A stretch of 64,000 bases of DNA, from the NCBI GenBank assembly GCA_016219425.1, contig JACRNB010000005.1:62001-126000 (forward strand), read 5' to 3'. This DNA comes from Betaproteobacteria bacterium. GTDB lineage: Bacteria > Pseudomonadota > Gammaproteobacteria > Burkholderiales > Thiobacillaceae. Positions 12,660 to 63,522 of the stretch are shown here, one piece after another. Both the position numbers and the translations under genes were made by a program. Numbering within the stretch: the first letter of the stretch is position 1; every line of letters starts with the position of its first letter. The notes below the pieces were generated by a model, which ran no database searches, was not told where the DNA came from, and worked only from the letters and a program-made list of their open reading frames with translations.

Positions 12660-12748
12660 AAGCGTTGCTCCCTCACCCCCGGGGGAGGGGTGGTGAGAAC
12701 CCTCTCCCCCCGGGAGAGGGCAGGGTGAGGGAACGAACGGTGAATTTC
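12660..12748. repeat. GC-rich palindromic repeat (two hairpins enclosed by GCTCCCTCACCC...GGGTGAGGGA)
   Basis: gcgttgctccctcacccccgggggaggggtggtgagaaccctctccccccgggagagggcagggtgagggaacgaacggtgaa. Confidence 0.88.
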
Positions 12749-15293: not shown

Positions 15294-15392
15294 GGCGTTG
15301 CTCCCTCACCCCCGGCCCCTCCCCCGGCGGGGGAGGGGGGCAAGGAACCCTCTCCCTCCGGGAGAGGGCAGGGTGAGGGAGCGGCAGTGAAC
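15294..15392. repeat. GC-rich palindromic repeat, full-length two-hairpin copy
   Basis: gcgttgctccctcacccccggcccctcccccggcgggggaggggggcaaggaaccctctccctccgggagagggcagggtgagggagcggcagtgaac. Confidence 0.92.
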
Positions 15393-45670: not shown

Positions 45671-45860
45671 TCCCCCTCTCCCTCCGGGAGAGGGCCGGGG
45701 TGAGGGAGCGGCGGTGAATGAGCGGTGTGGGCCGGGCGGGCGTTGCTCCGTCATCGCTACCTGGGACGGCGAGGGCGATGCCGCGGTGAATTGGCGGAGT
45801 GGGTCGGGCGGGCGTTGCTCCCTCACCCCCCCGCCCCTCCCCCGGCGGGGGAGGGGAGCT
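45671..45860. repeat. GC-rich palindromic repeat with internal ~72-bp direct duplication between adaptor and RND pump genes
   Basis: ccccctctccctccgggagagggccggggtgagggagcggcggtgaatgagcggtgtgggccgggcgggcgttgctcc...gcggtgaattggcggagtgggtcgggcgggcgttgctccctcacccccccgcccctcccccggcgggggagggga. Confidence 0.9.
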
Positions 45861-51300: not shown

Positions 51301-52095
51301 TCAGTCCCGATACAGCGCCCGCACCCTCTCCAGGTCTTCCGCCGTATCCACCCCCGGCGGCAGGGGCTGCGGGATGGTGAGCACGATGATGCGGTGGCCG
51401 TGCCAGAGGGCGCGCAACTGTTCCAGCGATTCAAACGCCTCCAGCGGCGGACGTTCCAGGCCGGGGTAGGCCTTGAGAAAACCGACGCGGTAAGCGTAAA
51501 GGCCGATATGGCGGTGGAAGGTCAAACCGGATGGAATCGTCGCTCCCTCACCCCCGGCCCCTCCCCCGGCGGGGGAGGGGAGTAAAGCCCACGCATCGCG
51601 CGCCCAGGGGATGGGCGCGCGCGAGAAGGTGAGGGCGTAGCCGTTTCGGTCCATCACCACCTTGACCACGTTGGGGTTGAAGACCTCCGCCGGATCGTGG
51701 ATGGGGTGGCACAGGGTAGCCATGGCGGCGTCCGGATGGTCGTACAGGGCCTGGGCCGTGGCGCGGATCAGGGCGGGGTCGATCAGAGGCTCGTCCCCCT
51801 GCACGTTCACCACCACCGCATCGTCCGCCCAGCCCAGCCTGCCCGCCACCTCGGCCAGACGGTCGGTGCCGGAGGCGCAGTCGGGCGAGGTCATGACGGC
51901 GCGATGGCCATGCGCCTCCACCGCCGCCGCCACCTCGGCATGGTCCGTGGCGGCCCATACCTGCGCCGCCCCCGAGGCCGCCGCGCGCTCCAGCACCCGC
52001 ACCACCATGGGCTTGCCGGCGATATCGGCCAGGGGTTTGGCGGGCAGGCGGGTAGAGGCGTAGCGGGCGGGGATGACGGCGTAAAAGGCGGACAT
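51301..52095 (-). CDS. kdsB: 3-deoxy-manno-octulosonate cytidylyltransferase with in-frame repeat-derived insertion
   Basis: [38 protein letters not shown]...[16 protein letters not shown]...; [15 protein letters not shown] inserted before [15 protein letters not shown]. Confidence 0.94.
51541..51586. repeat. GC-rich palindromic repeat (half copy) inside kdsB
   Basis: gctccctcacccccggcccctcccccggcgggggaggggag. Confidence 0.9.
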
Positions 52096-54972: not shown

Positions 54973-55565
54973 GCGTTCAGGTGCAGCAGCACGGGGGCAT
55001 GGCCCGCCAGATGGGAGATGCGGAAGTGGCCGCATTCCGGCAGGGCGATGCGCCAGACGTGGCCTTCCGGCAGGCCGATCAGGTCCATGAGCAGGGCGCG
55101 CATCACCCCAGCATGGGTGACGAGCAGGCGATGACCGCCGTCGGCATCCGCCAGCCAGTCCTGCCATGCGGTTGCAACGCGCGCGCGCAGGCCCGCGAGC
55201 GATTCGCCCCCTGGCGCGGCGCAGGCATGGTCGCGGAAGCGGGCGTATAGCTCCGGGTCGCGCAGGGCGGCCTCGTCCGGGGTAAGCCCTTCCCAGGCGC
55301 CGAACGCCATTTCGCGGAACCCTTCCAGCAGCGTCAGCGGTACGCCGCGCGTTTGGGCATGGTGCGCGGCAGCCTCGCGGCAACGGGTCCGGGGCGAAGC
55401 GGCAATCCGGTCGCATGGCGGCGCATCCAGCCGCGTCAGCGCCGCTGCCATGGCGGCGCGGCCCGCGTCCGACAGCGGATCATCCTGTGCGCCCCGGAAC
55501 ACATGGGCGCGGCCCGCCGTCTGGCCGTGGCGCAGCACGGTCACCAGGGTGGGTTCAGGGGGCAT
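54960..55565 (-). CDS. cobC: Histidine phosphatase, alpha-ribazole phosphatase-like
   Basis: [36 protein letters not shown]...[22 protein letters not shown], in the cob cluster. Confidence 0.88.
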
Positions 55566-56856
55566 TGCTGATATTGGCCTCGGCGAAGGTGGCCATGCCC
55601 TTGTGCAGGGCGCAGGCCAGGCGCAACAGGGGCAGGGCGACGGCGGCGCCGCTGCCTTCACCCAGGCGCAGGTCGAGTTGCAGCAGGGGCTTCGCCTCCA
55701 GCGCCGCCAGCAGGCGCGCATGTCCCGGCTCGGACCCGGCGTGGGAGAACAGCAGCCAGTCGCGCACGCCGGGGTGGATGCGGCAGGCCGCGAGCGCGGC
55801 AGCGGTGGTGATGAAGCCGTCCACCAGGGCGGGCAGCCCGGCCTGGGCGCAGGCGATGTAAGCGCCCGCCAACGCGGCGATCTCGAAACCGCCCAGGCAG
55901 CGCAACGCCCTGCTCCCTTCTCCCTCCGGGAGAAGGGCTGGGGATGAGGGAGCCGCGGTGGCGTGAGCGAAGCTTGCTCCCTCACCCCGGCCCTCCCCCG
56001 GGGGGGGAGGGAGAAAACCGTGGCGCGTCGGTCCCTGGTCGATCACCGCCGCCTGGCGCGCCGCAGGTGTGGCGTCCAACGCCCGGCTCCCTTCTCCCTC
56101 CGGGAGAAGGGCTGGGGATGAGGGAACCGCGGCGGCGTGAGCGAAGGTTGCTCCCTCACCCCGGCCCTCCCCCGGCGGGGGAGGGAGAAAACCATGCAGC
56201 GCGAGCCCGCGGTCGATCACCGCCGCCTTGTGCGCCACGCCTTCAGCGGTCAGCCCCGTGCCGGGGCCGGCCAGGGCCGCGCCGGGCAGGCCGAGCAGGG
56301 CGCAGCCCAGGGCGGCGGCGGCGGTGGTGTTGCCGATGCCCATCTCGCCGCCAATGAAAATGTCCGTCCCCGCCGCGCGCGCGCGTTCCACGGCGCGCCG
56401 TCCCGCGCTCAGGGCGTGTTCCAGTTGCCCCGGCGTCATGGCCGGCCCCTGCGTGAAATTGGCCGTGCCCGCGCCGGCCTGGTCCCACACCACGCCGGGC
56501 AGGGGGGCGGCGGCCAGGGTGCCCGCGTCCACCACCTCCAGGGTCGCGCCGTTCTCGCGCGCCAGCACGGCGATGGCTGCGCCGCCGGCGACGAAGTTGG
56601 CCAGCATCTGTTGCGTCACCACCTGCGGAAAGGCGGCCACGCCTTCCGCCACCACGCCGTGGTCGCCGGCAAAGACGGTGATCCAGGGGCGGGCGAGGGC
56701 GGGCCGTTCGCGTCCCTGCATCGCCGCCAGCGCGACGGCGACCTCTTCCAGCCGCCCCAGGCTGCCGGGCGGCTTGGTCAGGGTGCTCTGGCGCGCCAGG
56801 GCGGCCTGACGGGCAGTCTGGTCGAGGGCGGCGGCGGGGGCGTGGGTCCAGTTCAT
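55555..56856 (-). CDS. cobT: Nicotinate-nucleotide--dimethylbenzimidazole phosphoribosyltransferase with repeat-derived insertion
   Basis: [27 protein letters not shown]...[35 protein letters not shown]...[15 protein letters not shown]...[18 protein letters not shown]; contains two copies of [37 protein letters not shown]. Confidence 0.94.
55912..56227. repeat. 174-bp tandem repeat with GC-rich palindromes inside cobT
   Basis: gctcccttctccctccgggagaagggctggggatgaggga... starts at 55912 and again at 56086; gatcaccgccgcc at 56041 and 56215; exact 174-bp offset (58 codons). Confidence 0.95.
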
Positions 56857-62059: not shown

Positions 62060-63522
62060 TTCAGCAGTTCCAGCAGGTGGTGGATATCCAGATGATTTTC
62101 CACGGCATCCGCAAGGCGGTCGATGGCTGATTCGCGTAATTGGGAGATGTCCGGCGCGCGGGCGCCGCTGAGGCCCGCCCAGGCCAGCACGGCGTTGGCG
62201 CCGGCGGGGGTGTCGAACAGGCCGTGCAGATAGGTTCCGGCGATGTCGGGGGTGAGCGCACCGTCCGGGCGGCCATCGAGCCAGACCAGGGGGCGCTCCA
62301 GCGCCGCGCCGGAGGTGACGCCGGCGTGGATCTCGTAACCGCGGACGGGGGCATCGCCCAGGGCCAGATGGCCGCTCACGTTGCGCAACTGTTTTTCCGC
62401 CGCCAGCGTGGTCTCCAGCTCCAGCCAACCCAGGCCGGGGCTGGAACCGGGCGCGCCTTCGATGCCGAGCGGATCGTGCAGCGCGCGCCCCAGCATCTGA
62501 AAACCGCCGCACACGCCCAGCACCTTGCCGCCGTAACGCAGGTGACGTTGCAGATGCGCCTCCCAGCCGGATTGGCGCAGCGCGGCCAGGTCGGCGCGCA
62601 CCGATTTGGAACCGGGCAGAAGGATGAGATCGCAGGGCGGCGGCGCGGCGTCCAGGCCGACGAAGCGGAAATCCACGTCGGGATGCAGGCGCAGCGGGTC
62701 GAAGTCGGTGTGGTTGGAAATGCGCGGCAGGACCGGGACGAGGACACGAAAACGCCTCCCCTCCCCCCCCGGGGGAGGGGGCAAGGCATCCTCCGCCTCC
62801 AGGTTTAGCCCGTGCAGATAGGGCAGCACCCCCAGCACCGGCTTGCCGGTCTCCCGCTCCAGCCAGTCCAGCCCCGGTTGCAACAGGGCCAGATCGCCGC
62901 GAAAACGGTTGATGACGAAGCCCTTTACCCGCGCCCGTTCGCTCTCGGATAGCAGCGCCAGGGTGCCGACGATATGGGCGAACACGCCGCCGCGGTCGAT
63001 GTCCGCCACCAGGATCACCGGGCAATCCACCGCCTCGGCGAAGCCCATGTTGGCGATGTCGCCCTCGCGCAGGTTGATCTCCGCCGGGCTGCCTGCGCCC
63101 TCCACCACGATGGCCTCGTACTGCCCGGCCAGACGCGCATAGGACTCCAGCACCGCCGCCCGCGCCCTGGGTTTGTAGTCGTGGTAGGCCTGCGCCTCCA
63201 TATTGGTAAGCGCCCGCCCCTGCAGGATGACCTGGCAGCCGGTGTCGGAGTTGGGCTTGAGCAGCACCGGGTTCATGTCGGAGTGCGGCGCCAGACCACA
63301 GGCTTGCGCCTGCACCGCCTGCGCCCGCCCGATCTCGCCGCCGTCTGCCGTTACCGCGCTGTTGAGCGCCATGTTCTGCGGCTTGAACGGCGCAACGCGC
63401 ACCCCGCGCCGATGCAGCCAGCGGCCCAGGGCCGTCACCAGCGCGCTCTTGCCCGCGTCCGAGGTGCAGCCCTGGACCATGAGGGTGGGGGTGTTCGTAC
63501 GCGTAGAATCGGGTGTAAACAT
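62056..63522 (-). CDS. cobQ: Cobyric acid synthase
   Basis: [62 protein letters not shown]...[19 protein letters not shown]. Confidence 0.95.
62757..62780. repeat. GC-rich palindromic core inside cobQ
   Basis: cccctcccccccccgggggagggg hairpin, translated as PPPPGGEG. Confidence 0.75.

Follow-up and report, generated by a model that had tools for sequence, protein, structure and literature searches.

In-frame palindromic elements in cobT and other genes of a betaproteobacterial genome, and their linkage to DUF559 nuclease genes

The cobT gene described here contains, in frame, two tandem copies of a palindromic element. This element belongs to a dispersed family whose members have common ends and reside in frame within unrelated genes. 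Longer versions of the element carry a gene for a DUF559 (PF04480) nuclease, and the type of nuclease and the type of hairpin co-occur. We consider it fairly probable that the family represents a palindrome-ended, homing-like element, and that the cobT insert is a non-autonomous, MITE-like copy that was later duplicated together with adjoining cobT sequence. Coordinates refer to the window, that is, to the whole 64-kb stretch of DNA that was analysed, unless a contig is named.

The duplicated palindromic element in cobT

The cobT open reading frame (56856-55555, minus strand) is uninterrupted and encodes a protein of 433 amino acids, in agreement with an earlier, sequence-only reading of this DNA. 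Its product, nicotinate-nucleotide--dimethylbenzimidazole phosphoribosyltransferase, matches Pfam PF02277 and NCBIfam TIGR03160/NF000996, and these profile matches are split into two stretches that flank the insert. Tandem Repeats Finder reported an array at 55903-56236 (period 174, 1.9 copies, 90% matches, score 561), by far the highest-scoring tandem array of the window, and a repeat search resolved two units, 55903-56062 and 56077-56236, that align in register over 160 nt with 90% identity at a spacing of 174 nt, or 58 codons. The sequence-only reading had described an in-frame 174-bp tandem duplication of a palindrome plus flanking cobT sequence, with units 58 codons apart, and both statements are confirmed by the period, identity and spacing. 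The starts that it gave, 55912 and 56086, belong to a real repeat; however, the true limits lie a few bases outside them, and the duplicated stretch is longer on both sides. The features of the gene are as follows.

55555..56856, minus strand: cobT, with in-frame interruption (ORF; PF02277, TIGR03160)
56077..56236, minus strand: tandem unit 1 in coding-strand order, consisting of a 12-residue cobT flank, the palindromic element and RAL
56084..56192, minus strand (contig C8:118084-118192): palindromic element, copy 1 (genome search)
56165..56185, minus strand: hairpin of half-unit 1a, CCCTCCCCC-GCC-GGGGGAGGG on the coding strand
56089..56111, minus strand: hairpin of half-unit 1b, CCCTTCTCCC/GGGAGAAGGG
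56063..56076, minus strand: 14-nt stretch separating the two 160-nt repeat units (from the unit coordinates)
55903..56062, minus strand: tandem unit 2, consisting of a 12-residue cobT flank, the palindromic element and RAL, followed by the native RCLGGFEIA
55912..56018, minus strand (contig C8:117912-118018): palindromic element, copy 2, 96% identical to copy 1 (genome search)
55991..56011, minus strand: hairpin of half-unit 2a
55915..55937, minus strand: hairpin of half-unit 2b
55928-55950, 55979-55999, 56102-56124 and 56153-56173: G-quadruplex motifs of the cobT half-units

The element is approximately 107 bp in length and is composed of two facing (inverted) half-units with a variable, copy-specific spacer between them. 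Each half-unit has a C/G hairpin of 9-10 bp, next to which, on the inner side, lies GGGGxTGAGGGAGCAACG. Compensatory changes in the stems of 49 half-units (position 4: C-G in 36, T-A in 11, broken in 2; position 7: C-G in 43, T-A in 6) indicate that the palindromic hairpin structure is under constraint. TGA is present in one of the three reading frames of the half-unit, which limits the frames that survive inside genes. Each of the 49 half-units also has a G-quadruplex motif of four tracts (G3+, loops of 1-7) that begins within the 3′ arm of its hairpin.

How might two copies have come to lie side by side? The duplicated cobT sequence comprises, on the coding strand, approximately 45 nt upstream of the element and approximately 9 nt downstream of it. 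Because both copies have this 45-nt flank and the spacer in common, and because they are 96% identical to each other and at most 86% identical to any other full-length copy in the genome, insertion followed by tandem duplication is the simplest order of events. The sequence-only reading had proposed this same order, which the common host flank (AAVID...HG) and the near-identical spacer support; two independent insertions into this cobT gene were rejected on the grounds of the same flank and spacer. Both the insertion and the duplication are well supported. The two units differ at 16 of 160 positions, and nine of these mismatches are clustered in 17 nt of the duplicated cobT flank (56194-56210 and its unit 2 counterpart). 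The flank has diverged more than the element (11/45 vs 4/106 positions, p = 3e-4), a pattern that does not fit simple drift after duplication. This unevenness would be accounted for by gene conversion between the two elements or by a second, clustered change in the flank, both of them candidate causes.

The sequence-only reading regarded the segment as an insertion. In CobT orthologues from outside the genus, the loop before LGGFEIA is only 13-15 residues long; therefore, the insert segment is not ancestral. Within the genus, this loop contains type A hairpins in the genome under study and in relatives G007 and G012, type B hairpins in G019, G006 and G016, or short sequences, which may be relics. 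These differing contents imply at least two insertions into the same CobT loop. The sequence-only reading had noticed neither these hits on the loop in several relatives nor the membership of the insert in a genome-wide family with links to DUF559. In the structure model of the 433-residue protein, the core has pLDDT values mostly above 90 and insert residues 239-306 have values below 50, so that the insert is predicted to be disordered, in support of the earlier guess that it forms a surface loop. On the basis of this model, the best explanation would be that the element is tolerated in a disordered surface loop, and CobT may still be functional despite the insert.

Other copies and the DUF559-bearing long form

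A search of the genome with the element returned 76 matches; since both strands of the inverted structure are matched, these correspond to approximately 40 distinct places. A search with the hairpin pattern found 150 hairpins, compared with none for a reversed control pattern. About 20 of the retrieved copies sit within long open frames, and at least 13 copies besides that in cobT lie in frame inside named housekeeping genes (NCBIfam models, one genome). The hosts are AcnA (aconitase), valyl-tRNA synthetase (valS), DNA polymerase I (polA), an ABC-F ATPase, MurD, PurL, Mfd, an RND permease, Mpl, MetH, an oligopeptide ABC ATPase, dihydrolipoyl dehydrogenase (lpdA) and SMC. Elsewhere in the window, the following members of the family were found.

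51545..51580, minus strand: single half-unit in kdsB, read as 14 residues
11922..12019, plus strand (contig C8:73922-74018): complete hairpin pair, outside any confirmed gene
45673..45856, plus strand: hairpin pair with a longer spacer

Three further family hairpins (12700-12720, 15316-15368 and 62758-62781) lie, like the two pairs listed above, outside confirmed genes so far as checked. Type B hairpins occur in short arrays with a spacing of approximately 135 bp on contigs C5, C6, C9 and C12 of the same genome (for example, C9:3-23, 138-158 and 273-293), some of them at contig ends.

The same genome also contains a longer version of the element, located in frame inside recG, which carries a DUF559 gene and has ends as in the short copies. 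It has 18-nt inverted arms (GGGGGTGAGGGAGCAACG), and the hairpin plus GGGGxTGAGGGAGCAACG is common to both ends of the short copies and of this long form. DUF559 was absent from the recG loop in the other genus members with a readable recG junction, several of which have other short palindromic inserts in the loop. A third, unrelated palindrome type (GCGAGTSGCGAGT...ACTCGCSACTCGC) is present in the recG loop of other species of the genus. In relative G012, cobT itself holds a full in-frame DUF559 element between hairpins, at the very site of insertion seen in the window. Further in-frame DUF559 fusions involve HsdM, HsdS, HsdR, a DNA methylase, a BioF-like class II aminotransferase-fold enzyme and YgiQ; the ygiQ fusion, like that of cobT, occurs in relatives, and the fusions to restriction-modification genes occur elsewhere. 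Restriction-modification genes (HsdM, HsdS, HsdR, Mod, PglX-like) account for approximately 8 of the 13 in-frame DUF559 hosts.

A Pfam search of the DUF559-fused ORFs identified just the host domains, DUF559 and the nuclease relative MTES_1575, with no splicing domain, and the possibility of an intein was rejected for this reason; neither an intron nor an intein was found around DUF559. Because no splicing domain was seen, the host proteins probably retain the insert peptide. Neither a clean target-site duplication nor a shared target motif came to light; at the cobT and recG loops, divergence among the relatives was too great to give base-exact empty sites.

What kind of protein is DUF559? 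Residues E14, D43, E54, H60 and D67 are invariant in the DUF559 (PF04480) alignment. The best match to the predicted fold (pLDDT 90) is 3hrl, followed by the homing endonuclease I-Bth0305I (3r3p) and then by Vsr. The match to I-Bth0305I was obtained both by structure (Foldseek E 4e-4, TM ~0.7) and by sequence profile (E 3e-4), and the profile also matches 3hrl. By its fold, DUF559 is related to Vsr and to I-Bth0305I, an EDxHD homing endonuclease. VsrA, a DUF559 protein of Caulobacter, triggers the SOS response in vivo on loss of a cytosine methyltransferase or of cytosine methylation, and the authors of that study interpreted it as a Vsr-type mismatch-repair nuclease (PMC12907096). This SOS response indicates that at least one DUF559 member damages DNA in vivo.

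Association of hairpins with DUF559 and a possible mode of spread

At 20 of 26 class-wide loci, DUF559 had a perfect stem of at least 8 bp on each side, no more than 250 bp away, compared with 0 of 26 at distant positions of the same loci. In a sample of 296 Gammaproteobacteria genomes, three or more hairpins were present in 42 of the 64 that carry a strong DUF559 gene, compared with 30 of the 232 that do not (OR 12.9, p = 4e-16), such p-values being approximate and inflated because the genomes are related. Mobile DNA of other sorts could likewise be more abundant in DUF559-bearing genomes. Sixteen genomes have at least 10 hairpins and no strong DUF559 match, for which loss of the nuclease or another mover are suggested readings; in 16 genomes, DUF559 is present and this hairpin pattern absent. 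Within the genus, each hairpin type goes with its own nuclease type: the pairings of A with A (p = 7e-4) and of B with B (p = 1.5e-4) are significant, whereas those of hairpin type A with nuclease type B (p = 0.10) and of hairpin type B with nuclease type A (p = 0.20) are not. Nuclease type B forms one clade (support 98/94).

How might such an element spread? We infer that the DUF559 nuclease, encoded in full-length versions between the hairpin ends, would cleave either empty sites or DNA at, or close to, such hairpins, and that repair after cutting would copy the element in. The nuclease would also work in trans on the short copies and thereby mobilise them. Copies surviving in genes would be those that entered an open frame and a surface loop. 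One such short copy entered the cobT loop that precedes LGGFEIA, and the tandem duplication that followed captured the element with approximately 54 nt of cobT. A broader proposal, to which we give about an even chance, is that DUF559 (PF04480) drives a widespread and so far unnamed class of splice-less homing-like elements, in which a nuclease of the Vsr/EDxHD fold lies between inverted hairpins, insertion into host proteins occurs in frame, and the hairpin ends spread through the genomes of bacteria as non-autonomous copies, the cobT insert among them.

Other movers can be considered. Host replication or repair, through template switching at hairpins, or a mover that has since vanished, might have spread the palindromes, DUF559 being a Vsr-like repair nuclease or a passenger that lies between such hairpins by chance. 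The hairpin-rich genomes with no strong DUF559 match, the interpretation of the Caulobacter protein as a Vsr-type repair enzyme (PMC12907096) and the failure to see a target-site duplication are all consistent with such a process; however, we regard it as rather unlikely, given that DUF559 is flanked by hairpins on either side in many families, that the nuclease clade matches the hairpin type, and that intact DUF559 elements with shared ends are found in frame in unrelated genes. Alternatively, the hairpins might belong to the REP/BIME sequences, which RAYT (Y1) transposases mobilise in E. coli and Pseudomonas, considering that inverted hairpin dimers, some of them within ORFs, resemble REP dimers (PMC3733652) and that RAYT-type genes (PF01797) are present in 17 of 23 genomes of the genus. 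Nevertheless, no family hairpin was found in the retrieved flanks of the eight best RAYT-type (PF01797) loci of the genus, the GTAG/CTAC tag occurs in only 2 of the 49 half-units with flanks, and G017 and G022 have 3-4 PF01797 matches yet modest hairpin counts, all of which makes mobilisation by RAYT improbable. A role as transcription terminators was set aside, in that the hairpins flank DUF559 on both sides and occur within coding sequence.

It might also be asked whether the insert is an addition to CobT selected for its function, such as a linker or a regulatory or localisation segment. The frame is preserved in both cobT copies, and several relatives retain inserts in the CobT loop, as this explanation would predict. 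It is nonetheless very improbable, because the inserts of the relatives are entirely different (hairpin type A, type B, nuclease or short relics), identical peptides recur in many unrelated proteins, and the CobT insert is disordered in the model. Finally, the 174-bp duplication could in principle be an assembly or chimerism artefact, which we find scarcely credible: the mismatches at 16 of 160 positions make a simple assembly duplication unlikely, and the gene lies on a 166-kb contig of a 16-contig assembly rated as 100% complete, with 0.06% contamination.

Relation to known systems and significance

Rickettsia palindromic elements (RPE) are short palindromic repeats that have entered many unrelated protein-coding genes without breaking the frame and persist as extra, probably surface, peptides. 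The present element resembles them in being in frame in several unrelated conserved protein genes (the 13 named hosts and cobT). Unlike RPE, which belong to an intracellular symbiont, it is found in a betaproteobacterial lineage, apparently has a different sequence, and has longer versions that carry a nuclease gene; we know of no nuclease linked to RPE.

Intragenic GTAG and CGTC REPs, described by Di Nocera et al. (2013, PMC3733652), are inverted dimers of hairpins of ~20-40 bp, some of which lie in ORFs and code for 20-30 amino acids. Many are in repair genes, and some recur at one site in a pair of species, as with recB in two Xanthomonas. The CGTC REPs have no dedicated transposase, and DUF559 is not mentioned in that paper. 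The present element likewise forms inverted hairpin dimers, some within ORFs. It differs from GTAG REPs in that its half-units have no consistent GTAG tag, are not adjacent to RAYT and are linked to DUF559, and from CGTC REPs in that CGTC/GACG occurs anywhere in the half-unit or its flanks in 11 of 49 cases, with no fixed terminal tag. Similarly, DUF559 has the same predicted fold as I-Bth0305I, an EDxHD enzyme of a phage group I intron, and both are nucleases embedded in a host gene; in contrast to I-Bth0305I, the DUF559 nuclease is fused in frame and has palindromes at the ends of its element, with no intron or intein found. The QMITE1 and QMITE2 elements of Coxiella are, in the part of PMC5896051 covered here, multi-copy palindromic MITEs of 150-400 bp with short direct repeats that overlap ORFs, occasionally in frame (hypothetical ORFs). 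The present element is also multi-copy and palindromic and overlaps ORFs, but it is linked to DUF559, a link not described for QMITEs in that part of the paper. Our literature search, which covered few subscription journals, found no paper tying DUF559/PF04480 to palindromes. In-frame palindromes were already known from the Rickettsia elements and the intragenic REPs, and the linkage to DUF559 appears to be the new part.

The spread of protein-coding palindromes, and of REPs that lack a RAYT gene, has been an open question. DUF559, which is annotated as being of unknown function, provides a candidate enzyme for this process, the hairpin ends provide a recognisable substrate, and cobT and recG offer natural empty and filled sites; therefore, the question becomes directly testable. 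These findings also carry a warning for genome annotation, in that a disordered Pro/Gly/Glu-rich insert in an essential enzyme of a bacterium can consist of mobile DNA and not be a functional domain.
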